DNA from: Parolsenella massiliensis
GTDB taxonomy: Bacteria > Actinomycetota > Coriobacteriia > Coriobacteriales > Atopobiaceae
Length of the DNA: 64,000 nucleotides
NCBI RefSeq assembly: GCF_900143685.1
Contig: NZ_LT671675.1
Span: 285,111-349,110 of the forward strand
Direction: 5' to 3'
The notes beneath the pieces were generated by a model. It was not told the origin of the DNA. It ran no database searches and saw only the letters and a list, made by a program, of their open reading frames with translations. Positions 5,406-17,907 of this stretch are shown here, one piece after another. How positions within the stretch are numbered: the first letter of the stretch is position 1; every line of letters starts with the position of its first letter. Both the position numbers and the translations under genes were made by a program.

Positions 5406-6737
5406 ATGAAGTACTTCGGCACCGACGGCTTCCGCGGCCGCGCCAACGAGGGCCTCACGGTCGATCACGCATTCGCCATCGGACGCTTCGTGGGCTGGTA
5501 CTACGGCCTGCGCGAGGGTCGCAAGGCAAAGATCGTCATTGGCAAGGACACGCGTCGCTCCAGCTACATGTTCGAGTACGCGCTCGGCGCCGGCCTGGTG
5601 GCAAGCGGCGCGGACGCCTATCTGCTCCACGTCACCACGACCCCCTCGGTGAGCTACGTCGTGCGCAGCGAGGGCTTTGACTGCGGCATCATGATCACCG
5701 CGAGCCACAACCCCTACACCGACAACGGCATCAAGCTCATCGGCTCGGACGGCTACAAGATGGAGCCCGAGGTCCTCGAGCTGGTCGAGGACTACATAGA
5801 CGGCAAGTCCGAGGTGCCCCTGGCCACTGGCGAGGAGATCGGCCGCACGATCGATTACGTCGAGGGCCGCAACCGCTACATCGGATTCCTCATCTCCTCG
5901 GCGAGCTTCTCGCTCCACGGCATGCGCATCGGCCTCGACTGCGCCAACGGTTCCTCTACGCCCATCGCCAAGGGCGTGTTCGATGCCCTGGGCGCCAAGA
6001 CCTACGTGGTGTCCAACGAGCCTAACGGCTTCAACATCAACCGTGGCTGCGGCTCCACCCACATCGAGCAGCTCCAGAACCTCGTGAGCGAGAAGGGCCT
6101 CGACGTGGGCTTCGCCTTCGACGGCGACGCCGACCGCTGTATCGCGGTCGACGAGCACGGCAACGTCGTCGACGGCGACCTCATCATGTACGCGTGCGGC
6201 GTCTACCTGCACAAGCGCGGCCAGCTCGCCAATGACACCGTCGTGACCACGGTCATGAGCAACCTCGGCCTGTACAAGGCGCTCGAGGCGGCGGGCCTTC
6301 GCTACGAGCAGACCCCGGTGGGCGACAAGTACGTTGCCGCCTGCATGGCCGAGAACGGCTACTCGCTCGGCGGCGAGCAGAGCGGCCACGTCATCTTCTC
6401 CAAGTACAGCAACACCGGAGACGGCATCAACACGAGCCTGCGCATCATCGAGGCCATGCTCGGCTCCAAGAAGACGCTCTCCGAGCTCACCGAGCCGGTG
6501 AAGATCTACCCGCAGCTGCTCAAGAACGTCGTCGTGGCAGACAAGCAGGCCGTCATGGCAGACGAGCGCGTCAAGGCCGCCGTCGCCAGCGTCGAGACGT
6601 CGCTCGAGGGCGAGGGTCGCGCGCTCGTGCGCGCGAGCGGCACCGAGCCCATGGTCCGCGTCATGGTCGAGGCGGCAACCCCTGCCATCTGCGAGCAGTA
6701 CGTCAACGAGGTCGTCAAGGTCATCGAGTCGCTGTAG
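5406..6737 (+). CDS. glmM: Phosphoglucosamine mutase
   Basis: 443 aa. It converts glucosamine-6-P to glucosamine-1-P for UDP-GlcNAc and peptidoglycan synthesis. Visible signatures are the start KYFGTDGFRGRAN, the active-site loop TASHNP with catalytic S100, the metal-binding DGDADR (D239, D241, D243), GEQSGH in the sugar-binding loop and RASGTEPMVRV in the phosphate-binding domain. SD AGGAGAA precedes the ATG. A strong terminator follows. Confidence 0.95.
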   Translation: MKYFGTDGFRGRANEGLTVDHAFAIGRFVGWYYGLREGRKAKIVIGKDTRRSSYMFEYALGAGLVASGADAYLLHVTTTPSVSYVVRSEGFDCGIMITASHNPYTDNGIKLIGSDGYKMEPEVLELVEDYIDGKSEVPLATGEEIGRTIDYVEGRNRYIGFLISSASFSLHGMRIGLDCANGSSTPIAKGVFDALGAKTYVVSNEPNGFNINRGCGSTHIEQLQNLVSEKGLDVGFAFDGDADRCIAVDEHGNVVDGDLIMYACGVYLHKRGQLANDTVVTTVMSNLGLYKALEAAGLRYEQTPVGDKYVAACMAENGYSLGGEQSGHVIFSKYSNTGDGINTSLRIIEAMLGSKKTLSELTEPVKIYPQLLKNVVVADKQAVMADERVKAAVASVETSLEGEGRALVRASGTEPMVRVMVEAATPAICEQYVNEVVKVIESL

Positions 6738-6747
6738 GGCTCTGCCC

Positions 6748-6780
6748 GGCCCGTCTGCCGTCCGGCAGGCGGGCCTTCTT
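6748..6780 (+). terminator. Intrinsic terminator after glmM
   Basis: GGCCCGTCTGCC (6748-6759) pairs with GGCAGGCGGGCC (6764-6775), loop GTCC, followed by TTCTTTTTC. The T-run abuts the SD of the next gene. Confidence 0.88.
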
Positions 6781-6795
6781 TTTCTGGAGGCATGG

Positions 6796-7602
6796 ATGAG
6801 GCTCATTCTCTCGGACATCGACCGCACGATTCTGCCGTTTGGCATGCAGTCCGTTCCCAAGCGCACGCGCGAGGCCATGCACGAGGCCGTCGAGCACGGA
6901 TGCGCCGTGGGCCCGTGCACGGGCCGCTCGCTGGCGTGGGCGTCCATCCTGTTCGACGGCGACGATATGTGCACCTCCACCTGCATCGCCACGAACGGCC
7001 TGCAGGTCTATCACGCCGGCGAGATGGTGCTCGAGAAGACGATCCCGGCCGAGTGCGTGCGGCGCATGGCAGACGTCGTCTCCGGCATCGAGCATGCTGG
7101 CCTCGTCTACTTCGACGACGCTCAGCCGCTCCTGTGCGCGGGTACGGCCGAGGACCTCACGGTGGCGTTTCCCCGCTATGGCAAGATCTGCAAGCCGGCG
7201 GGCCTTCCCACCCATGACGTCGTGAAGGTGAATGCCTTCGTCGCCAGGGACGAGGAGAGGACCTACGAGCTGGCGCACCTGCTTTCCGCCGAGCTTCCCG
7301 AGCTCGACTTCGACGTGCCGCAGGTGGGCTTCACCAACATCATGCCCGCAGGCTGGAACAAGGGCGCGGCCGCCCTGTACCTGCGTGACTACCTCGGCGT
7401 GGCGCCCGAGGATGTCTTCGTCTTCGGCGACGCCGAGAACGACCTCACGATGCTCACGGCCGTGGAGAACTCCGTGGCCGTCGCCAACGCCGCGCCTGCC
7501 GCGGCTGCGGCAGCTCGCTGGCACATCGGCGCATGCGAGGACCTCGCCGTGGCCGATGCCATCTCCGCCCTGGCCCGCGGCGAGTTTCCGTTCGAGCGCT
7601 AG
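6796..7602 (+). CDS. HAD-superfamily (Cof-type) phosphatase
   Basis: 268 aa. Motif I is DIDRT (D7 nucleophile, D9), motif II CTGRS, and motif IV GDAENDLTM near the C-terminus, with a C2-type cap between, as in Cof-like sugar or cofactor phosphatases. The usual glycine of DxDGT is replaced by arginine. ATG 6796 is used with TGGAGG upstream; an ATG four bases earlier is out of frame. The substrate cannot be told. The gene sits between glmM and an insertion sequence. Confidence 0.85.
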   Translation: MRLILSDIDRTILPFGMQSVPKRTREAMHEAVEHGCAVGPCTGRSLAWASILFDGDDMCTSTCIATNGLQVYHAGEMVLEKTIPAECVRRMADVVSGIEHAGLVYFDDAQPLLCAGTAEDLTVAFPRYGKICKPAGLPTHDVVKVNAFVARDEERTYELAHLLSAELPELDFDVPQVGFTNIMPAGWNKGAAALYLRDYLGVAPEDVFVFGDAENDLTMLTAVENSVAVANAAPAAAAAARWHIGACEDLAVADAISALARGEFPFER

Positions 7603-7612
7603 GTCGCAAGCT

Positions 7613-7635
7613 GCAAAAGGGACAGCCCCCTTTGC
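7613..7635. repeat. GGGACAG-type palindrome (family 1, copy 2)
   Basis: GCAAAAGGGACAGCCCCC followed by TTTGC forms a short hairpin directly after the HAD gene and ~35 bases before the IS left end. It resembles the other GGGGAC-containing palindromes of the window. Confidence 0.5.
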
Positions 7636-7677
7636 TGGTTTCGCCAAGAAGAAAGGGGTCGTCGGCGTCATTGAACT

Positions 7678-7711
7678 GCCTCCCATTTCTTGGACACGAG
7701 AAATGGGAGGC
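7678..7711 (+). promoter_or_regulatory. Hairpin masking the transposase ribosome binding site
   Basis: Bases 7678-7690 and 7699-7711 form a perfect 13-bp stem with an 8-nt loop. The 3' arm contains GGGAGG (7705-7710), the SD for the orfA ATG at 7718. A transcript entering from outside would fold and hide the SD, while one starting inside the loop would not. This is a known strategy for limiting transposase expression from read-through; its use here is inferred. Confidence 0.75.
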
Positions 7712-7717
7712 TTTCTC

Positions 7718-8209
7718 ATGCGGGCGGACCTCAGGTTTAGATACGACGTCGGGGTGAGGAGGAGGGCCGCGGAGCTCTTCTCCTCTGGACTGGGCTGCAG
7801 GTCGGTCGCCGCCAGCCTCCCGGCCCCGATTGCCGCCGTGAGAAAATGGCAGGAGATATACCGCGCGTTCGGGAGCGAGGTGCTGCTGCGCATGGACGGG
7901 AAGCAGGCCAGGTACACGTACGAGCAGAGGGTCGCCGCCGCCTCGGCCGTCGTCGACCGCGGGATGCCAAGGCCGGCGGCGATGGCCAGGTTCGGCATCA
8001 TGTCGAAGTCTCCCCTCGACCGCTGGTGCAGGCTCTACCGGGAGGGCGGCGCGGAGGCGCTGCGCCCGAAGCCCAGGGGCAGGCCGAAGGCCGCGGGGCC
8101 CGGGCCGAGGAGCCGCGAGGAGGAGCTCGAGGAACGCTGCCGCAGGCTCGAGGCCGAGGTCGCCTACCTAAAAAAATTGCGCGCCCTGGCCGAGCGGGAC
8201 GGGCTCTGA
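7718..8209 (+). CDS. IS3-family transposase OrfA (helix-turn-helix)
   Basis: 163 aa. It contains two HTH-like segments (RRAAELFSSGLGCRSVAASL and RVAAASAVVDRGMPRPAAMA), a basic PKPRGRPK linker and a C-terminal coiled coil (EEELEERCRRLEAEVAYLKK), the layout of IS3 OrfA proteins that bind the terminal repeats and dimerise. ATG 7718 has a GGGAGG SD that lies in a hairpin. The reading frame runs over the A7 site and stops at TGA 8207-8209. Confidence 0.88.
   Translation: MRADLRFRYDVGVRRRAAELFSSGLGCRSVAASLPAPIAAVRKWQEIYRAFGSEVLLRMDGKQARYTYEQRVAAASAVVDRGMPRPAAMARFGIMSKSPLDRWCRLYREGGAEALRPKPRGRPKAAGPGPRSREEELEERCRRLEAEVAYLKKLRALAERDGL
8170..8176 (+). promoter_or_regulatory. Programmed -1 frameshift site (A AAA AAA)
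   Basis: A run of seven A at 8170-8176 is positioned as A-AAA-AAA in the OrfA frame. A -1 slip moves ribosomes into the OrfB frame (IARPGRAG), producing the OrfAB fusion transposase. This is the standard arrangement in IS3-family elements. Confidence 0.85.
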
Positions 8210-9081
8210 CCGGGGCGAAGGCCGAGGCGGTCGCGGCCCTGCGCGCCGAGGGGCACTCGCTGCGGCACCTGCTCGCGTGCTCGGGGCTCGCAAGGTCGAC
8301 CTACTACTACGCCCTGGCGCACCCGCCGCGGCCGACGAGACCGGAGCTCTGGGAGGCGGCGGCCGAGATCTTCTCCCGCACCGCCAACGGCTGCGGCCAC
8401 CGCCAGGTCGCGATGTGCCTCAGGGCGGAGGAGGGCGCCGTGATCGCCGACAAGACGGTGCTCAAGATGATGCGCGAGATGGGGATCCGCTGCGGCATAC
8501 GCCGCGAGACCGCCTACCACAGGTACAGCTCGTACAGGGGAGTCGTGGGCAGCACGTTCGAGAACCTGCTCGCCCGGGACTTCGCCGCCGGCGCCCCGTG
8601 GGAGAAGCTCGGCACGGACGTCACCGAGTTCAAGGTGGCCGGCGGCAAGGCCTATTGGGCGCCCACGCTGGACTTCTGCACCAAGGAGATCGTGGCGAGC
8701 GACGTCTCGGCCTCGCCCGACATGACCCAGCAGCTTAGGATGCTGGATGAGCTCCTGGCGAGGCTCCCGGAGGGGGCGTCGCCGGTCATGCACTCGGACA
8801 TGGGCTGGCAGTATCAGCACGAGCGGTACGCGGCGAGGCTCAGGGAGGCTGGCATCGCCCAGAGCATGTCCCGCAAGGGCAACTGCATCGACAACGCCGC
8901 CACCGAGCAGCTCTTCGGCCACGTCAAGGACGAGTTCTACCGGGGCTGCGAGTGGGACAGCTTCGAGGACTTCAAGCGCGACCTCGAGGCGTACGTCGTC
9001 CACTGGAACACGCGCCGGAGGCAGGTAAGATTGAAGGGCCTGACCCCGGAGGAGTTCCGGAGACAGGCCCTCACGGCCTAG
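8170..9081 (+). CDS. IS3-family transposase OrfB (DDE integrase domain)
   Basis: About 303 residues, read as the -1 extension of OrfA; there is no obvious independent start. An HTH_21-type N-terminal part (LACSGLARSTYYYAL) precedes an rve catalytic core with the three acidic residues in GTDVTEF, HSDMGWQYQ and NAATEQLFGHVKDE, and the typical end HWNTRRRQVRLKGLTPEEFR. No stop or frameshift breaks the catalytic region, so the transposase is probably functional. Confidence 0.92.
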   Translation, partial: KKIARPGRAGRALTGAKAEAVAALRAEGHSLRHLLACSGLARSTYYYALAHPPRPTRPELWEAAAEIFSRTANGCGHRQVAMCLRAEEGAVIADKTVLKMMREMGIRCGIRRETAYHRYSSYRGVVGSTFENLLARDFAAGAPWEKLGTDVTEFKVAGGKAYWAPTLDFCTKEIVASDVSASPDMTQQLRMLDELLARLPEGASPVMHSDMGWQYQHERYAARLREAGIAQSMSRKGNCIDNAATEQLFGHVKDEFYRGCEWDSFEDFKRDLEAYVVHWNTRRRQVRLKGLTPEEFRRQALTA

Positions 9082-9156: not shown

Positions 9157-9576
9157 CTACTTCACGACGCCCTTGCGAAGCAGGATGTTGGCGTAGGTGG
9201 CCTCCTCGGAGGTGGCCACGATCGCGTAGGTCTTGCGGGCGCGCTCGATGAAGGCGTCGTGCTCCATGTGCGTGATCCTCACGTCGCCGCAGTGCTTCTT
9301 GATGATCTCGCGGTACGTGGCCCAGATGGGAGGCTCCTCGGGCGTGGGGCTCTCCATCATGGCGACGGGGCTGTCGACGTAGTCGTCGAGCGGCATGAGC
9401 GTGAGGATGGAGTCGAGGATCTCCGGCACGCCCAGGCCGATGCAGCGCACGAGCAGGTTGCCGCTCGAGGTGGCCGGGTAGTTGCCGTCGGACAGGACGA
9501 TCTCGTCGCCGTGGCCCATCTCCATGAGGACCTTGAGCAGGTCTGGCGAGACGTTCTTGGGAATACCATTCAGCAT
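9157..9576 (-). CDS. RbsD/FucU-family sugar mutarotase
   Basis: 139 aa. The pattern starts MLNGIPKNVSPDLLKVLMEM followed by GHGDEIVLSDGNYPA, which contains the conserved histidine and aspartate of the RbsD/FucU fold. The C-terminal part (FIERARKTYAIVATSEEATY) is the FucU-type tail. FucU interconverts alpha- and beta-fucose; RbsD does so for ribose. Similarity looks closer to FucU, and a fucO gene lies at the far end of this window. The start is the ATG with GGGGAG upstream; a longer frame to 9606 lacks an SD. Its 3' end is 38 bases from the IS right end. Confidence 0.82.
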   Translation of the reverse strand: MLNGIPKNVSPDLLKVLMEMGHGDEIVLSDGNYPATSSGNLLVRCIGLGVPEILDSILTLMPLDDYVDSPVAMMESPTPEEPPIWATYREIIKKHCGDVRITHMEHDAFIERARKTYAIVATSEEATYANILLRKGVVK

Positions 9577-9661
9577 GCTTGCTCCCCTTTCGCGGAGGTT
9601 CTTCACGTACTCACTGTTATAGCCGCAGGCCTCGCGGCCCTTGCCGGCGCATCCGCCAGCG

Positions 9662-10634: not shown

Positions 10635-11816
10635 ATGGCAACGTATGCAATCAAGGCCGACAGGTTCTTCCTGCCGGGTTCCTCCGTTGAGGGTGGCTAC
10701 CTCACGGTGAGCGATGGCGTCTTTGGCACCTGGAGCGCCGAGGCCCCCGAGGGCGTCGAGGTCCGCGACTACACGGGCAGCATGATTGCCCCGGGCATGG
10801 TGGACACGCACATCCACGGCTTCTTCGGCCACGCCACGATCGACGCGGACGCCGAGGGCATTAACGCCTCGAGCCTCGAGCTCGCCCGTCGCGGCACCAC
10901 GTCCTGGGTCCCCACGACGTTCACCGACGACGCCGACCACGTCGGCGAGTGCTGCGCCGCCATCGCCGCCGCCGACGAGGCGCGCGACTCTAGCTTCCGC
11001 GGTGCCCACATCCAGGGCATCTACCTGGAGGGCCCGTTCTTCACGATGAAGCACGTGGGCGCCCAGAACCCCGAGTACCTCATCGACCCGAGCTACGAGG
11101 TCTTCAAGGGCTGGCAGGAGAAGGCCGGCAGCCGCATCGTCAAGAGCGCGCTTGCGCCCGAGCGCGAGGGCTCTGTGGCCTACATCGCCGCGCTCGACGC
11201 CGAGGGCGTCGTGACCTCCGTCGGCCACTCCGACGCCACCTACGAGGAGGCGCTTGCCGCCGTGAACGCCGGCGCCACCTGCTTCGTCCACACCTACAAC
11301 GGCATGCGCGGCCTGCATCACCGCGAGCCGGGCACGCTCGGCTGCGCCATGTCCACGCCCGAGACCTACGCCGAGGTCATCTGCGACGGCAAGCACGTGC
11401 AGCCTGCCGCCATCAAGGCGCTCGTGCGTGCCAAGGGCTGGCAGCACTCCGTGCTCATCACCGACTGCCTTGGCTGCGGCGGCCTTCCCGAGGGCCACTA
11501 CATGAGCGGCGGCCTTCCCGTCGTCATGGAGGGTGGCCTGTGCTACCTCGAGAACCCCGATGGCACGAAGGGCAACATCGCAGGGTCTGTGCTCACGCTC
11601 GCCAAGGGCGTCAAGAACGTCGTGGACTGGGGAATCGCGAGCGCAGACGAGGCCATTCGCATGGCCACGGAGGTCGCGGCCCGCTCCGCGCGCATCGATC
11701 GCGTCTGTGGCTCCATCAAGCCGGGCCGCGCGGCAGACTTCGTCGTGTTCGACCACGAGCTCAACCTTCGCGAGACCTATCTGGCGGGCGAGACGCTCGG
11801 TGCGCCCGAGGACTAG
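10635..11816 (+). CDS. nagA: N-acetylglucosamine-6-phosphate deacetylase
   Basis: 393 aa. Amidohydrolase with the HxH metal motif MVDTHIHG (H59, H61), the catalytic-metal glutamate in YLEGPF, GHSDATYEEA, THTYNGM-like VHTYNGMRGLHHREPG and ITDCLGCGG. It deacetylates GlcNAc-6-P to glucosamine-6-P, feeding glycolysis or, via GlmM nearby, cell-wall precursors. The start ATG 10635 is at the beginning of homology (MATYAIKADRF). It precedes, on the same strand, a mannose-family PTS operon, but a terminator separates them. Confidence 0.93.
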   Translation: MATYAIKADRFFLPGSSVEGGYLTVSDGVFGTWSAEAPEGVEVRDYTGSMIAPGMVDTHIHGFFGHATIDADAEGINASSLELARRGTTSWVPTTFTDDADHVGECCAAIAAADEARDSSFRGAHIQGIYLEGPFFTMKHVGAQNPEYLIDPSYEVFKGWQEKAGSRIVKSALAPEREGSVAYIAALDAEGVVTSVGHSDATYEEALAAVNAGATCFVHTYNGMRGLHHREPGTLGCAMSTPETYAEVICDGKHVQPAAIKALVRAKGWQHSVLITDCLGCGGLPEGHYMSGGLPVVMEGGLCYLENPDGTKGNIAGSVLTLAKGVKNVVDWGIASADEAIRMATEVAARSARIDRVCGSIKPGRAADFVVFDHELNLRETYLAGETLGAPED

Positions 11817-11865: not shown

Positions 11866-11909
11866 GTGGCCCGTAGGCGATTTGAAACGCCTACGGGCCA
11901 CTTTTGTGA
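11866..11909 (+). terminator. Intrinsic terminator after nagA
   Basis: A 14-bp perfect stem, GTGGCCCGTAGGCG / CGCCTACGGGCCAC, loop ATTTGAAA, then TTTTGT. Confidence 0.93.
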
Positions 11910-12123: not shown

Positions 12124-12906
12124 ATGGGCTTTCCGCAGATCATAGCTCTTACTGTGTATGCGGCGTTTGTCACGTGGGAGATGCTGGGACCGCAGTTCTA
12201 CCTGTCGAAGCCGGTTATCGCTGGCCTGTTCGCAGGCGCCGTCATGGGTGACGTGGCCACTGGCCTGTTCATCGGCGGTACGCTGCAGCTGATGGTCCTC
12301 GGCGTTGGCACCTATGGTGGCTCGTCGATTCCTGACTACATGTCTGGTGCCCTTATCGGCACCGCCTTCGCCGTCACGACTGGCTCGACCGAGGTCGGCC
12401 TCGCAATCGCCGTGCCGGTGGGCCTGCTCCTCGTTCAGTGCGACATCCTTGGCCGTTTCTGCAACACCGCGTTCCAGAACATGGCCGACGCCGGTGCCGA
12501 GGAGAAGAACTGGCGCAAGGTTGAGCTCGGCTGCCTGCTCGGCACCATTCCTTGGTGCCTGTCCCGCGCCATTCCCGTCTTCCTGTGCCTCGCCCTTGGC
12601 CAGGACGTCGTCGCCAGCCTCGCCGCCGCCGCTCCCGAGTGGCTCCTCAACGGCTTCAAGTGCGTCTCCGGCATGCTCCCCGCAGTCGGTATCGCCATCC
12701 TGCTCCACTTCATGCCGCTCAACCGCTTCTGGCCGTACGCCCTTCTCGGCTTCGTGCTCGCCGCGTACCTCAACGTGCCGATGCTCGGCGTCGCCCTCGT
12801 TGGCCTCGCCTTCGCTGCCGTGAAGTACTACGAGTTCACGCAGCAGAAGCCTGTTGTCGCTGTGGCTGCTAGCACCGAGGGAGGGACCATCGATGACGAC
12901 GAGTAA
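12124..12906 (+). CDS. PTS system mannose-family EIIC membrane component
   Basis: 260 aa, hydrophobic, with many predicted membrane segments. The N-terminal GFPQIIALTVYAAFVTWEML and the internal GLFAGAVMGDVATGLFIGGT stretch are typical of mannose/sorbose/N-acetylgalactosamine IIC proteins (AgaW/SorA type), which form the sugar channel with IID. Substrate is not readable; the neighbouring nagA and SIS genes suggest an amino sugar or hexose. It overlaps the IID gene by 14 bases. Confidence 0.92.
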   Translation: MGFPQIIALTVYAAFVTWEMLGPQFYLSKPVIAGLFAGAVMGDVATGLFIGGTLQLMVLGVGTYGGSSIPDYMSGALIGTAFAVTTGSTEVGLAIAVPVGLLLVQCDILGRFCNTAFQNMADAGAEEKNWRKVELGCLLGTIPWCLSRAIPVFLCLALGQDVVASLAAAAPEWLLNGFKCVSGMLPAVGIAILLHFMPLNRFWPYALLGFVLAAYLNVPMLGVALVGLAFAAVKYYEFTQQKPVVAVAASTEGGTIDDDE

Positions 12907-13699
12907 CACCGCTCTTTCTCAGAAGACGCTCAACAAGGTCTTCTGGCGCTGGTACTTCTGGGGCCAGATTGGTTGGAACTACGAGAAGATGCAGGGCTCT
13001 GGCTACTGCTACGCCATGATGCCCGCCCTCAAGGAGATCTACACCAACGAGGACGACCTGCAGGTTGCCGTGAAGAACCACCTTCAGTTCTTCAACACGA
13101 CGCCCGACATGGCCTTCATCATCCTCGGCATCGACTGCGCCGTCGAGCCCGAGCTCAAGCTTGATGGCCTCGAGGCCGTCAGTGGCATCAAGACTGGCCT
13201 CATGGGCCCGTTCGCCGGCGTGGGCGACTCCATCTTCGGCGTCGTCATCCCGACGATCTTCGGCGCCATTGCCGCCTACATGGCTCTCGACGGCAACCCC
13301 GTGGGCTGCTTCATCTGGATTGCCATGGGCGTCGTGACGACCATCATCCGTTGGTTCCTCTTCAAGATCGGCTACACCCAGGGCCAGTCCGCCGTGGGCA
13401 CGATCGCCGAGAACATGAAGCCCATCACCGACGCCGCCTCCATCCTTGGCCTCGTCGTCGTTGGCGCCCTCGTGTGCTCCGTGGTCTCCATCCACGCGCC
13501 CGGCACCTTCACCTTCGGTGACGTGTCCCAGCCCGTCCAGGACCTGCTCGACGGCATCATGCCGTCCCTGCTTCCTCTGTGCGGCACGGCTCTCGTGTAT
13601 TGGCTGCTCTCCAAGAAGGGTATGACTTCCAACAAGGCGATTCTCATCGTCATCGTTGTTGGTCTGCTGCTTGGCTGCACCGGTATCCTGGCTAAGTAG
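12893..13699 (+). CDS. PTS system mannose-family EIID membrane component
   Basis: 268 aa. The block NKVFWRWYFWGQIGWNYEKM with GSGYCYAMMPALKEIY is the standard EIID N-terminus, followed by NTTPDMAFIILGID and a membrane domain with GPFAGVGDSIF. The start MTTSNTALSQK at 12893 is preceded by GAGGGAGGGA inside the IIC gene. It works with IIC as the membrane permease of a mannose-type PTS. The order IIC-IID-IIB places soluble IIA last, unusually far downstream (16424). Confidence 0.93.
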   Translation: MTTSNTALSQKTLNKVFWRWYFWGQIGWNYEKMQGSGYCYAMMPALKEIYTNEDDLQVAVKNHLQFFNTTPDMAFIILGIDCAVEPELKLDGLEAVSGIKTGLMGPFAGVGDSIFGVVIPTIFGAIAAYMALDGNPVGCFIWIAMGVVTTIIRWFLFKIGYTQGQSAVGTIAENMKPITDAASILGLVVVGALVCSVVSIHAPGTFTFGDVSQPVQDLLDGIMPSLLPLCGTALVYWLLSKKGMTSNKAILIVIVVGLLLGCTGILAK

Positions 13700-13723: not shown

Positions 13724-14224
13724 ATGGCTGAAGAGTTCGAGGGCATGCCCGGCATTGTTGCGATCCGCATTGATGACCGACTCATTCACGGGCAGGTCGT
13801 GGCCTATTGGTCCAACTCGCTCAAGCTCACGCGCATCATGGTCGCAAATGACGACGTCGCCGTTGACGACATGCGCAAGTCGGTACTGAGGATGGCGGCC
13901 CCTGCTGGCATCAAGACCTCGATCATTCCGGTCGAGCGTGCTGCCAAGCAGATTCTTGAGGGCAAGTATGCCGGTCAGCGCGTGTTCCTCATCGTGAACA
14001 AGCCGGCTGACATCATTCGCCTCATGGACCTTGGCCTGCCCATCAAGACGATCAACATCGGCAACATGGGTGGCAAGGACGACACGAAGCCCATCAAGAA
14101 GTACGTCAACGTCACCGACGAGCAGGAGCAGCAGTTCCGCGACCTGCTGGACAAGGGAGTCGAGATCACGACTCAGCTCGTCCCGCAGGACCCGGTGACC
14201 CACCTGACGGACTATCTCAAGTAG
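13724..14224 (+). CDS. PTS system mannose-family EIIB component
   Basis: 166 aa. RIDDRLIHGQVVAYW carries the phosphoryl-accepting histidine (H22) of mannose-family IIB proteins, followed by IMVANDDVAVDDMRKSVLRM and NIGNMGGKDDTKPIKKYV. It passes phosphate from IIA to the incoming sugar. SD GAGGAGG precedes the ATG. A terminator follows. Confidence 0.93.
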   Translation: MAEEFEGMPGIVAIRIDDRLIHGQVVAYWSNSLKLTRIMVANDDVAVDDMRKSVLRMAAPAGIKTSIIPVERAAKQILEGKYAGQRVFLIVNKPADIIRLMDLGLPIKTINIGNMGGKDDTKPIKKYVNVTDEQEQQFRDLLDKGVEITTQLVPQDPVTHLTDYLK

Positions 14225-14232
14225 GGCCCAGT

Positions 14233-14274
14233 GAGAGGGGTCGGGCGCCGAGCGCGACCCGGCGCCTCTTTTTT
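14233..14274 (+). terminator. Internal terminator between IIB and the SIS gene
   Basis: GAGGGGTCGGG-type arm pairs with CCCGGCGCCTC (one mismatch, one G-U), followed by TTTTTT. It splits the PTS locus into IIC-IID-IIB and a distal SIS/TF-like/IIA part, so distal expression is either lower or driven by its own promoter. Confidence 0.75.
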
Positions 14275-14283
14275 GCGCGCTTG

Positions 14284-14338
14284 CCCGCTCGCCGGGCGAG
14301 CGGGTCCACTGAAACCAGGGCGAGGGGCTCTGGCTTCA
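14284..14338. promoter_or_regulatory. Two dyads upstream of the SIS gene
   Basis: 14284-14304 is a perfect 21-base palindrome (CCCGCTCGCC / GGCGAGCGGG). Next, TGAAACCAG (14310-14318) and CTGGCTTCA (14330-14338) form a near-perfect inverted repeat with an 11-base spacer. Both lie between the internal terminator and the SIS gene and may be operator sites for separate control of the distal genes. Confidence 0.4.
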
Positions 14339-14408
14339 ATGGGCTCATGTCCGCAAGACGCTAGGAAAGGCGCTGACGCGCAACAACCAAGGGAAGGGGC
14401 ACAAGGAT

Positions 14409-15122
14409 ATGAACAAGACCGCAGAGCGTTTCAAGGCAGAGATCATCAAGCGCATCGACGAGGTCACGGATGGCCAGGACGAGGCCATCCACGAGGCTGC
14501 CACCATCTTTGCCGACACCATCGAGCGCGGCGGCATCATTCGCGCGTTCGGCTCCGGCCACTCCTTTGGCAATGCCCTCGAGATCTGCGGCCGTGCCGGC
14601 GGCTACATCCAGACCCGCATCATCCGCGAGCCGTCCACGGGCATCTACGAGATGCTCAACGGCACGGGCGTCCAGTTCATGAAGAAGCTCGACCTTCGTC
14701 CGCAGGACTGCCTCGTCGTCATCTCCAACTCCGGCCGCAACCCCCTCGGCATCGAGATGGCCGAGATCGCCCAGCAGAAGGGCGTCAAGACCATCGTCGT
14801 CACCGCACTCGAGGTCTCCAAGGCCGGCACGTCGCGTCGCGCTGACGGCAAGCTGCTGTATGAGTTCGGCGACGTCGTCCTCGACAACAAGAGTTCGTTC
14901 GGCGATGCCTGCATCGACGTCGAGGGCCTCGACACCAAGGTGGGCGGCACGTCGCTCTACACCGGCTGCATGCTGCTCGACTGCGCCATCATGGAGTCGC
15001 TCGACATCCTGCTCGAGCGTGGCGTCACCCCGCCCGTCTTCATGAGCGCCAACGTCGACGGCGGCCCCGAGTTCAACCAGAAGCTGCTCGACAAGTTCGC
15101 CGATCGTCTGGCAGAGTACTAG
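14409..15122 (+). CDS. SIS-domain phosphosugar-binding protein (UPF0309-like)
   Basis: 237 aa. A single SIS fold: AFGSGHSFGNALEICGRAGG near residue 46, ISNSGRNPLGIEMAEIAQQKG in the middle, and TALEVSKAGTSRRADGKLLYE. It resembles UPF0309-type proteins that bind phosphosugars rather than the larger AgaS or GlmS isomerases. In a PTS operon it probably isomerises or removes the phosphate group product, but the reaction is unknown. Confidence 0.82.
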   Translation: MNKTAERFKAEIIKRIDEVTDGQDEAIHEAATIFADTIERGGIIRAFGSGHSFGNALEICGRAGGYIQTRIIREPSTGIYEMLNGTGVQFMKKLDLRPQDCLVVISNSGRNPLGIEMAEIAQQKGVKTIVVTALEVSKAGTSRRADGKLLYEFGDVVLDNKSSFGDACIDVEGLDTKVGGTSLYTGCMLLDCAIMESLDILLERGVTPPVFMSANVDGGPEFNQKLLDKFADRLAEY

Positions 15123-15192
15123 GGATTTGGTTCACGGCGCGTCCCGGGTGCCGCTTGGTGCCCGGGGCGCGCGTTCGCTTGAGGAGTTGTGC

Positions 15193-16377
15193 ATGGGGGT
15201 TACGAGCATAGAGAGAAAGCCCGGCGAGGGCGGGTTCGAGACGTGGAAGGTCACGTTCGACGTTGACGTGTCGCACGTGGCGCAGGCGGACGAGCCCGGA
15301 GCCGCTCCGGAGGTTGACGAGGCACTCGAGCGCGAGGGCATCGTGTCGCTGTTCGTGCCCAAGGTTCGTAATGCCTGGGGAAACGAGCTCGAGCTCTCGG
15401 TGTTCCCGTGCCCCAAGGCAGACATCGCCAGCGCCGCTCCCTATCCGCTCGGCCCCGTGAAGGCCCCGCACGTGAGCGAGGCCGAGGTTGACCAGAGCGT
15501 GGCGCAGCTCGTGGCCGGCCATGGCCAGCTTGCGCCCGCCCTCGGCGTGTCTGTGCCTCGCATGGGTGACACCGTGGTCATCGACATCCAGGGCAAGGCG
15601 CCCAGTGGCAAGATTGATGACCTCACGAAGACGAACTTCCGTTACCTCGTGGGCTCGGCTGCCCTCCCCGGAAAGGTGACGACGCTGCTCTTGGGCATGC
15701 GCATCCGAGAGACGAAGCGCTGCAACCTCTCCCAAGGCTGGCGCATCCACGGAGAGCTTGGCGACGGCGGTCGCTCGCGCGCCTGCGAGCTGCGCGTGGC
15801 CGTGCGAGACATCCTGCGCGTGAAGGCTCCCAAGCTCACCGACGAGTGGGTTGCCGAGAACATGCCCAACGCCAAGAACGTCCGAGGCCTCAAGGACATC
15901 GTTCGCAAGACGCTGCGCGCCGATGCCGAGAGTGCCCAGCATGACGAGCTGCTCGAGCGTGCTGCCAACCAGCTGACGGGCCGCGTGACGTCCATGCCTC
16001 CCGAGGACGCGATGACCGAGATGGCCAACTCCTCGTTCGAGGGCCTGCTCGAGCAGGTCCATGGCGGTGGCTACACCATCACGGAGTACCTGAACTCGCA
16101 GCACACCGACGAGCAGAAGCTTCGCGGCATGCTCAAGGCCCAGGCAGGCTCCGAGCTCACGCGCCTCATGGCGCTTGACGCCCTCGCGAGGGACAACAAG
16201 CTCGAGCCGGGCGAGCAGGATTACGCACAGGCCGCCCGCACCGTTGGCAAGGCGGGCATCGAGAACCCCCAGGAGGCGCTCGAAGGCTCGTTCGGCTGCG
16301 TCTACGCGCGTCAGCTCGCCCTTCGCGCCCGTGCGAACGAGTGGCTGCTCGAGCGTCAGGGCCTCGGCCGCAAGTAG
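15193..16377 (+). CDS. Trigger-factor-like protein encoded in the PTS operon
   Basis: 394 aa. The middle resembles the FKBP-like PPIase domain of trigger factor (MGDTVVIDIQGKAPSGK, LVGSAALPG, LLLGMRIRETKRCNL) and leads into the trigger-factor C-terminal arm domain (ILRVKAPKLTDEWVAENM, GLKDIVRKTLRADAES, long helices to the end). The N-terminal ~115 residues lack the GFRxGKxP ribosome-docking motif of true Tig, and no other ribosome signature is seen. The start ATG 15193 has GAGGAG upstream. It lies between the SIS gene and IIA, with only 46 bases to IIA, so it appears to be part of the sugar operon. A dedicated chaperone for the PTS membrane proteins is one guess; a moonlighting sugar-responsive factor is another. 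Confidence 0.8.
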   Translation: MGVTSIERKPGEGGFETWKVTFDVDVSHVAQADEPGAAPEVDEALEREGIVSLFVPKVRNAWGNELELSVFPCPKADIASAAPYPLGPVKAPHVSEAEVDQSVAQLVAGHGQLAPALGVSVPRMGDTVVIDIQGKAPSGKIDDLTKTNFRYLVGSAALPGKVTTLLLGMRIRETKRCNLSQGWRIHGELGDGGRSRACELRVAVRDILRVKAPKLTDEWVAENMPNAKNVRGLKDIVRKTLRADAESAQHDELLERAANQLTGRVTSMPPEDAMTEMANSSFEGLLEQVHGGGYTITEYLNSQHTDEQKLRGMLKAQAGSELTRLMALDALARDNKLEPGEQDYAQAARTVGKAGIENPQEALEGSFGCVYARQLALRARANEWLLERQGLGRK

Positions 16378-16423: not shown

Positions 16424-16852
16424 ATGATCGGCTTCATTCTCACGGGTCACGGCGAGTTCGCCCCCGGCCTCGCAAGCGCGCTCGAGCTCGTCGCGGGCAG
16501 GCAGGAGGGCTTCAAGGTTGTTCCGTTCGACGTCGACAAGGCCGCCGACTATCCCGAGCTCATCCACTCCGAGATCGCCGCTATGCGCGAGCAGACCGAC
16601 GGCGTCGTCGTGTTCTGCGACCTTCTCGGCGGCACGCCCTTCAACCAGGCCATGATGGCCTCCCAGACCACGCCTGACGTCGAGATCGTCGTGGGCGCCA
16701 ACCTGCCCATGCTCATCGAGACGCTCTTTGCCCGCAGCTCCGACGCGAACGCCACGATTGGCTCGCTCGTCGAGACGGCCGTCAACGCCGGCAAGAACGG
16801 CGTCGACACGCGCAAGTTCGAGGTCTGTGCCGACGACGAGGACGACGAGTAG
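16424..16852 (+). CDS. PTS system mannose-family EIIA component
   Basis: 142 aa. ILTGHGEFAPGLASAL carries the active histidine H9, phosphorylated by HPr; VVFCDLLGGTPFNQAM is the second family signature. SD AGGAGGAA precedes the ATG. It is split from the IIC-IID-IIB genes by the SIS and trigger-factor-like genes. Confidence 0.93.
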   Translation: MIGFILTGHGEFAPGLASALELVAGRQEGFKVVPFDVDKAADYPELIHSEIAAMREQTDGVVVFCDLLGGTPFNQAMMASQTTPDVEIVVGANLPMLIETLFARSSDANATIGSLVETAVNAGKNGVDTRKFEVCADDEDDE

Positions 16853-16908: not shown

Positions 16909-17907
16909 GTGGCAACCATACGAGACGTCGCAAGGCGAGCGGATGTGTCGGTTGCCACGGTCTCGCGCTATCTCAACGGCGCACAGCTGCGTGAGGACAA
17001 CCGGGTCAGGATCGCCGAGGCCATCGAGGAGCTGGGATACCAGCCCAACATCATCGGCCGCGCCTTCGCGACGGCGCACAGCTACACCGTGGGCATCCTC
17101 ATCAGCAGCGCCACGAACCCGTTTGCGGCCTCGCTCATGGGGCTCGTCGAGCACGAGCTCGAGCGCCTGGGCTATGCAGCCGTGTTCGTCGAGTACCAGG
17201 GAGACGCCGACTTCCTTCGCGAGAAGGTCGAGTTTCTCCAGATGCACCAGGTGGACGGCCTCATCGTGGTGCTCTCAGAGCTTGCGCCCACAAGCGTCGA
17301 GTTTCTTCGCGAGGTGGCCGTGCCGCTCGTGCTCATCGACAACCCGCTCGTGGGGTCAAGCGCCGACTCCATCGTCGTGGACAACTGCGATGCGGTGTGC
17401 AAGGCAGTTGGCGCCATGCTTGACACAGGCCACGAGAAGGTGGGCCTCGTCTCCATGCAGCAGATCTCACACGTGGGTATCGAGCGGGCCCGAGGCTGGA
17501 GGCTTGCCCATGAGGATCGTGGGCTTCCGGTGCCCGAGGAGCTCGTGTGCTTCTGCGACAGCGTGAAGGAGGCCGCTACCCAGGCAACCTGCGAGCTGCT
17601 GTCCGCAGGTGCCACGGCAGTCTTTGCCTGCAACCACTATCTGGAGCTCGGGGCCCTCAAGTGCATGCTCCGCCGAGGCCTGTGCCCTGGCGTCGACGTG
17701 GGCTTTGCCGGCTTCGACGAGCTCGAGTTCGCCGACATCTTCGACCCCATCCCCACAAGCGTCATCCAGCCGGTCGTGGGAATCGCCTCCCTTGCCGCCA
17801 GCCTCCTTGTAGGCCGGATAGGTCGCGGCTTCGCGCCGGACGGCATCCATCGCCTGGCCTGTGAGGTGCGCCTCACCGAGTCCGTGCTCGGCGGGCTGCC
17901 GGCGTAG
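16909..17907 (+). CDS. LacI-family transcriptional regulator
   Basis: 332 aa, GTG start with GGGAGG upstream. N-terminal HTH (ATIRDVARRADVSVATVSRYL) and hinge (IIGRAFATAHSYTVGIL), followed by a periplasmic-binding-protein-like sensor domain. It lies 56 bases after the IIA gene, with only a weak GCGGGG/CCCCGC hairpin between, and is probably the regulator of the PTS operon. Confidence 0.92.
   Translation: MATIRDVARRADVSVATVSRYLNGAQLREDNRVRIAEAIEELGYQPNIIGRAFATAHSYTVGILISSATNPFAASLMGLVEHELERLGYAAVFVEYQGDADFLREKVEFLQMHQVDGLIVVLSELAPTSVEFLREVAVPLVLIDNPLVGSSADSIVVDNCDAVCKAVGAMLDTGHEKVGLVSMQQISHVGIERARGWRLAHEDRGLPVPEELVCFCDSVKEAATQATCELLSAGATAVFACNHYLELGALKCMLRRGLCPGVDVGFAGFDELEFADIFDPIPTSVIQPVVGIASLAASLLVGRIGRGFAPDGIHRLACEVRLTESVLGGLPA

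Follow-up and report, generated by a model that had tools for sequence, protein, structure and literature searches.

A trigger-factor paralogue without the ribosome-docking loop in a mannose-family PTS operon of Parolsenella massiliensis

The PTS locus and its trigger-factor gene

The window analysed here is a stretch of 64,000 nucleotides from Parolsenella massiliensis (contig NZ_LT671675.1, positions 285,111 to 349,110), whose genome (G000) consists of one contig of 2,009,306 bases. It contains a mannose-family PTS operon that includes a gene, here called tigL, for a homologue of trigger factor, the ribosome-bound chaperone of bacteria. The features of the locus are:

10635–11816, + strand: nagA, N-acetylglucosamine-6-phosphate deacetylase, upstream of the PTS genes (TIGR00221 over the cut-off)
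12124–12906, + strand: mannose-family PTS IIC (EII-Sor, PF03609; profile match)
12854–13699, + strand: mannose-family PTS IID (PF03613); longest reading frame, the true start may be internal
13742–14224, + strand: mannose-family PTS IIB (PF03830; profile match)
14233–14274, + strand: hairpin followed by a T-run, terminator- or attenuator-like, between IIB and SIS; largely conserved in a second genome of the genus (G059), absent from a consensus terminator scan
14409–15122, + strand: SIS-domain sugar isomerase family protein (PRK02947 over the cut-off)
15181–15186, + strand: GAGGAG, Shine-Dalgarno-like, 6 nt before the tigL ATG, read directly from the letters
15193–16377, + strand: tigL, trigger-factor homologue of 394 amino acids (reading frame from the ATG at 15193 to 16377)
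16424–16852, + strand: mannose-family PTS IIA (PF03610; profile match, start read from the letters)
16909–17907, + strand: LacI-type regulator, downstream of IIA (profile match)

The profile matches to IIC, IID, IIB, the SIS protein and IIA bear out the mannose-family PTS operon proposed in the initial annotation of this DNA, as well as the position of tigL between the SIS gene and EIIA with Shine-Dalgarno-led starts and short gaps. A gap of 70 nt follows the SIS stop (15122) before tigL begins, and the EIIA ATG at 16424, preceded by AGGAGG, comes 46 nt after tigL.

A terminator-like hairpin at 11866–11901 lies between nagA and the PTS genes; it comes from a scan that returned 4 sites versus 4.7 expected by chance. 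The hairpin between IIB and SIS falls within a region (14225–14410) with a strong predicted RNA fold (z = -3.65 relative to 200 shuffled sequences), and it could end or attenuate transcription ahead of SIS, tigL and IIA. Since the hairpin and its T-run divide IIC-IID-IIB from SIS-TigL-IIA, TigL is perhaps made out of step with IIC and IID.

Adjoining a GntR-type regulator upstream of nagA, we found an RbsD/FucU family protein (9157–9606, - strand; PF05025 over the cut-off), which scored 114 bits with the L-fucose mutarotase model, below the cut-off of 141. Judging from nagA, the SIS protein and this RbsD/FucU-type protein, the substrate of the PTS may be an amino sugar or something similar. 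Two overlapping frames at 7232–9081 (+ strand) resemble an IS3-type transposase pair on visual inspection.

TigL matched the NCBIfam trigger-factor model TIGR00115 (tig) over profile positions 118–383 of 410 with an E-value of 3.9e-24 and 85.2 bits, below the curated equivalog cut-off of 180.2. The Pfam family Trigger_C (PF05698) was recognised at 44.3 bits, over its gathering score of 22.7. Neither Trigger_N (PF05697) nor FKBP gave a Pfam match at E ≤ 0.1, and no further domain exceeded its cut-off in Pfam or NCBIfam. Compared with the PDB as a single sequence, TigL yielded one weak match, to the chloroplast trigger factor TIG1 (7zgi, E = 0.0095), whereas a profile built from TigL and related loci (alignment A2) reached trigger factors at 2e-35. 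Alignment A2 comprised TigL (P0001) and 46 of 47 related loci; L139 was dropped by hand for its unclear start, and L149 and L155 were kept despite similar doubts.

Predicted fold and loss of the docking loop

For structure prediction, AlphaFold2 was given P0001 as first sequence, followed by 46 unchanged translations of related loci. The resulting model (pLDDT 89.1, pTM 0.76) predicts the three-domain fold of trigger factor with an FKBP-type PPIase domain:

residues ~1–73: N domain (shortened)
residues ~117–213: FKBP-type PPIase fold
residues ~214–394: C-terminal chaperone domain

Foldseek returned eight matches at E ≤ 0.001, every one of them a trigger factor, with TM-scores of 0.28–0.46 and large rmsd. 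In VIA-align the best match of the model was E. coli trigger factor (1w26; Z 15.3, 335 residues aligned over model residues 4–394, rmsd 12.1, TM-score 0.39), followed by the trigger factors 3gty (Z 15.1) and 3gu0 (14.7) and chloroplast TIG1 7zgi (12.3), the rmsd values of these matches, 1w26 included, being 9–12. As the rmsd is this large, the likeness to trigger factor holds domain by domain and not as one rigid body; residues 117–213 alone superimposed on FKBP-type domains with Z-scores of 9.3–10.8 and an rmsd of about 2–3. The comparison with Tig structures suggested in the initial annotation thus placed trigger factors first. The profile matches to TIGR00115 and Trigger_C and the predicted structure agree with that annotation in calling TigL a trigger-factor homologue. 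Its claim that the domains are recognisable holds for the C-terminal part by Trigger_C and for the PPIase part by predicted structure, but for the latter less so by sequence.

The GFRxGKxP signature with which Tig docks to the ribosome, already noted as missing, is indeed lacking in the N domain of TigL. A pattern check found no G.R.G within its first 110 residues, a stretch that includes the 100 N-terminal residues in which Wan et al. (2024; PMC11559001) score the loss of GxRxG. In the alignment, TigL has PEV and five gaps opposite GFRKGKAP of the genome's own tig. Up to a conserved proline TigL counts 74 residues and the complete tig about 45 more, so that TigL is shorter than complete trigger factor through loss of N-domain residues, and its docking loop has been lost by deletion. 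The AlphaFold model retains the N-domain strands 3–9, 16–22, 57–62 and 65–70. At the expected position of the docking hairpin it shows two short helices only (27–31 and 39–47); from the alignment and the known anatomy of trigger factor we presume that this is the place of the hairpin.

A separate, complete tig lies at G000:C1:591470-592774, upstream of clpX; it scored 287.2 bits with TIGR00115 and is the one Trigger_N match of the genome. This rules out TigL as the genome's only tig, and the separate gene stands by clpX, one of the two genes near which the initial annotation had advised looking for it. Neither of the two outcomes named there as refuting, a structure unlike trigger factor or a sole tig gene, was thus obtained. 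The genome also codes for a third protein of trigger-factor type (G000:C1:1987284-1987946; within 6162–8312 of locus L181, - strand), with neighbours taken by eye for rpmE, DUF1385 and prfA. It matched model positions 115–148 and 251–428 of 430, which cover a short linker and the C-terminal region, with no PPIase match. Genome G059 gave matches to the same three proteins. Among the second-hit loci of genomes of the family (L034–L053), 18/20 held this short family; L050 is a complete trigger factor with an assembly gap, and L043 had no open reading frame. The gap-broken complete tig of L050 (5873–6865 and 12113–12989, genome G044) lies about 5 kb from matches to mannose-family IIA and IID, which is probably a coincidence.

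Distribution, relatives and selection

A close copy of TigL was found in G000 and G059 only, among 140 genomes of the family and 395 of the order that were searched; in G059 it takes the same operon position between SIS and IIA. The next-best match was 26% identical (E = 9.3e-28) in a frame of normal trigger-factor length. The next-best loci in the family (L006–L033) look like complete trigger factors, 27 of the 28 having a frame with G[FYW]RxGxxP (L032 was without the pattern).

To follow the operon instead of the gene, 32 loci of related PTS or SIS genes (L090–L109 and L224–L235) were compared in six frames with profiles of trigger factors, motif-less trigger factors and the short proteins, and with TigL. 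Beyond the G059 orthologue (L107), a trigger-factor match was found in 0/31 of these stretches of 4–17 kb, some of which end with their contig; related PTS genes are present in 28/31 (L101, L103 and L108 show none). Of the 19 SIS loci besides the G059 orthologue, 18 hold orthologues from the genus labelled g33 that are 73–76% identical, whereas the match in the nineteenth (L108) is 39% identical. The g33 orthologues adjoin nagA and, where the contig reaches, PTS genes, without TigL, and TigL was not found in the loci of IID relatives either. Such a PTS therefore does not generally need TigL, and the survey of PTS operons proposed earlier recovered the gene in the G059 orthologue locus and in none of the 31 other loci fetched.

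Next to IID, eight TigL-free loci (L090, L095, L226, L229, L230 and L232–L234) encode a protein of 133–215 amino acids with a hydrophobic start; the one in L090 (1406–2026) matched no Pfam family. In L224 (3720–9011), a PTS of the same order, with IIC, IID and IIB 57–60% identical to those of the window, adjoins GH88 family and DUF2264 proteins. This gene company suggests breakdown products of uronic-acid glycans as substrate.

TigL of G000 and G059 is 90.9% identical with no indels and no stop, at dN 0.051, dS 0.530 and dN/dS 0.095. The ratio is similar in the N (0.101), PPIase (0.095) and C (0.091) parts; all three domains are under purifying selection, and the low value in each indicates that the shortened N domain is kept and not decaying. 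Silent-site divergence of other genes was 0.20–0.24 for the PTS subunits, 0.39 for SIS, 0.12 for tig and 0.62 for the LacI-type regulator; at 0.53, tigL has roughly double the dS of the PTS subunits. As low dS may reflect the codon use of highly expressed genes, tigL is probably expressed below the PTS subunits.

More distant relatives were collected by a scan with one peptide pattern, for which TigL, its orthologue, eight motif-less trigger-factor-like proteins and the genome's own tig served as seeds; records of the window's genome or of near relatives may be left out of it. It returned 47 loci, all but one titled Coriobacteriia or genera placed there, and G[FYW]RxG was absent from the 200 N-terminal residues of all 47. 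Eggerthella, Gordonibacter, Adlercreutzia, Slackia and Raoultibacter are among the genera with motif-less trigger-factor-like records, and Eggerthellales and other Coriobacteriia encode several such proteins (L110–L176, L236–L245). In 16 genomes of the order, a Trigger_N match was present in 16/16 and at least two in 15/16.

TigL scored 170.5 bits with a profile of 54 motif-less proteins, gathered by searches started from TigL itself, versus 117.5 bits with a profile of complete trigger factors (43 of 45 used). A tree of 77 of the 117 collected rows, made by quick search with SH-aLRT support, placed TigL on the motif-less side (support 88, not starred), with a branch of 2.55 changes per column above the TigL pair. 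When TigL was constrained to join all 31 complete trigger factors, the tree scored marginally better than the unconstrained one (p = 0.625); forcing it together with the genome's own tig lost 29.7 log units (AU p = 0.086), and with the 14 complete trigger factors of the family 16.9 (p = 0.088). By these tests TigL may group with either the complete or the motif-less proteins, and an origin as a recent duplicate of the genome's own tig is disfavoured but not rejected.

Gene company was read from 65 distinct motif-less trigger-factor-like reading frames, a sample shaped by the one pattern scan and by chosen multi-copy genomes, with near relatives counted apart. Neighbours labelled by motif patterns were galU-like in 14 cases, an FtsX/MacB-type permease in 10 (plus L173, missed by the label pattern) and an FKBP-type PPIase in 2; in 23 cases all neighbours were of other kinds, and in 16 no gene of at least 100 amino acids lay on the same strand within 300 bp. 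Pfam, applied to one example each, identified a permease and ABC ATPase (L135) and a nucleotidyl transferase (L129). MFS transporters stand beside motif-less trigger factors in L111, L236 and L237, and at 340 bp in L113 and 406 bp in L116. Molybdopterin oxidoreductases do so in L116 and L123 (Pfam) and L119 (by eye), as does an iron-sulphur operon with a nitrate-reductase-delta-type chaperone in L125. Products of galU-like genes are not membrane proteins, and these neighbours do not fit a membrane theme. The recurrence of such neighbours, counted without a random-gene control, is at most suggestive.

Possible roles of TigL and comparison with known trigger factors

In our best explanation TigL, a trigger-factor paralogue now without the docking loop, has been kept as a working part of the PTS operon and acts on the products of this operon; we give this reading as a whole a probability of roughly 0.45. 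Its identity part is nearly certain: homology to trigger factor, the predicted fold, the deleted loop, the separate tig, purifying selection and linkage in two genomes were all computed. Ribosome independence, chaperone activity and the nature of the clients we infer, and that TigL serves as folding factor for its own operon's products has somewhat less than an even chance.

Wan et al. (PMC11559001) found trigger factor to be single-copy in 97.44% of the trigger-factor-containing genomes surveyed; several homologues occurred in 390 of 15,241 such genomes, and in 367 of these 390 one copy only had kept the motif. The same holds for the window's genome with its one complete, motif-bearing trigger factor. 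The harm done by overproduced complete trigger factor was relieved by removal of the N domain. Three N-deficient paralogues of Myxococcus xanthus (MXAN_1178, MXAN_1713 and MXAN_6153) did not sediment with ribosomes and were still able to refold GAPDH; they failed to prevent its aggregation, and their potential substrates mostly differed (PMC11559001). Given such published cases, a missing docking signature is not as unusual as the initial annotation supposed. By analogy to the M. xanthus proteins, TigL would most likely be a post-translational folding factor free of the ribosome, and the aggregation result argues against a holdase.

Under the best explanation TigL would thus do without ribosome docking and be a soluble folding factor that needs no ATP and encounters its clients post-translationally. 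Given the operon position, its clients are most likely PTS or SIS products, and these would mainly be proteins made alongside it, either IIC and IID prior to membrane insertion or the IIA, IIB and SIS proteins. The two suggestions of the initial annotation, a folding factor dedicated to IIC/IID and a regulator responding to the phosphorylated sugar, are both hypothetical. Co-production with the operon would raise folding capacity while avoiding the dosage cost of an extra ribosome-bound trigger factor (Wan et al., PMC11559001). We also count in favour of this explanation that some motif-less trigger factors of related bacteria appear, from their gene order, to stand beside genes for membrane proteins or exported enzymes. 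Against it we count the 0/31 related loci, the dS of tigL, a linkage seen in two genomes, the hairpin between IIB and SIS, the aggregation result (PMC11559001), the galU company and the 16 of 65 motif-less genes without a close neighbour.

Several of these points speak for a different role, that of a general-purpose, subfunctionalised paralogue, for example for clients of stress or stationary phase, which merely shares the PTS transcript. The M. xanthus paralogues have roles in stress and sporulation, with no operon link reported in sections 10 and 11 of that article (PMC11559001), related PTS loci manage without TigL, and the silent sites of tigL are less constrained than those of the PTS genes. 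We nevertheless consider such a role rather unlikely, as the position between SIS and IIA with short gaps is found both in the window and in G059, and some motif-less trigger factors of related bacteria recur beside particular genes.

TigL directly precedes IIA and the LacI-type regulator and keeps an FKBP-type fold in the model, as might be expected of a PTS regulator or adaptor. In that role it would bind EIIA, EIIB or the SIS protein, and either adjust uptake or target the LacI-type regulator. No other domain over cut-off was detected in Pfam or NCBIfam, however, and the C-terminal chaperone part is retained in the model and under purifying selection, which makes this role improbable. We regard it as less probable still that TigL contacts ribosomes or nascent chains through a different surface to act, during translation, on the messages of its own operon: the N-domain strands remain in the model and that part is under purifying selection, but of the docking hairpin just two short helices are left, without the signature. 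A decaying, functionless duplicate, to which the long branch and the restriction to one genus could point, is hardly credible at a dN/dS of 0.095 and a dS of 0.53 without indel or stop between the two genomes.

Beyond this operon, it is possible, though we hold it to be doubtful, that in Coriobacteriia trigger factor has diversified into a set of client-dedicated, operon-encoded chaperones that act apart from the ribosome. Many of these would each be linked to a single operon whose products form a membrane, exported or multi-subunit system, such as FtsX/MacB-type permeases, MFS transporters, molybdoenzymes or the mannose-family PTS. A docking-loop-less paralogue in a PTS operon offers a clean test of whether the trigger-factor body can be reassigned to fixed clients, and motif-less trigger factors of Coriobacteriia, some with recurrent neighbours, would make the same question testable in more than one operon.

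Trigger-factor paralogues without the docking motif are already known (PMC11559001); what appears to be new is the placement in a PTS operon and the occurrence throughout Coriobacteriia of trigger factors that lack the motif. In its main text, that article contains no word starting with coriobacter, actinobacter, eggerthella or olsenella. A limited search of the open-access literature revealed neither a trigger-factor homologue linked to a PTS operon nor a description of motif-less trigger factors in Coriobacteriia.

With trigger factor proper (Tig; TIGR00115, 1w26) TigL has in common the N-domain strands, the FKBP-type PPIase fold and the Trigger_C part; it differs in lacking the docking loop with GFRxGK and in scoring 85 bits versus a cut-off of 180, and the clpX neighbourhood belongs to the complete tig. 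The short trigger-factor relatives of the window's family (median 297 amino acids) share with TigL the Trigger_C-type part, and 15/16 are without GxRxG; they form a clade of their own in the tree, and the copy in G000 has no PPIase part, unlike TigL. The motif-less trigger-factor-like proteins of Eggerthellales and other Coriobacteriia lack GFRxG as TigL does, but those of L110–L176 have a median length of 436 amino acids, in most cases a longer N domain, 19–26% identity to TigL and other neighbours. Closest in kind are the N-deficient homologues described by Wan et al. (PMC11559001), where, as with TigL, an extra copy accompanies one complete trigger factor, the motif is lost and the N domain shortened. 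Ribosome behaviour and refolding have been demonstrated for the M. xanthus proteins, and the placement in a PTS operon sets TigL apart from these homologues.
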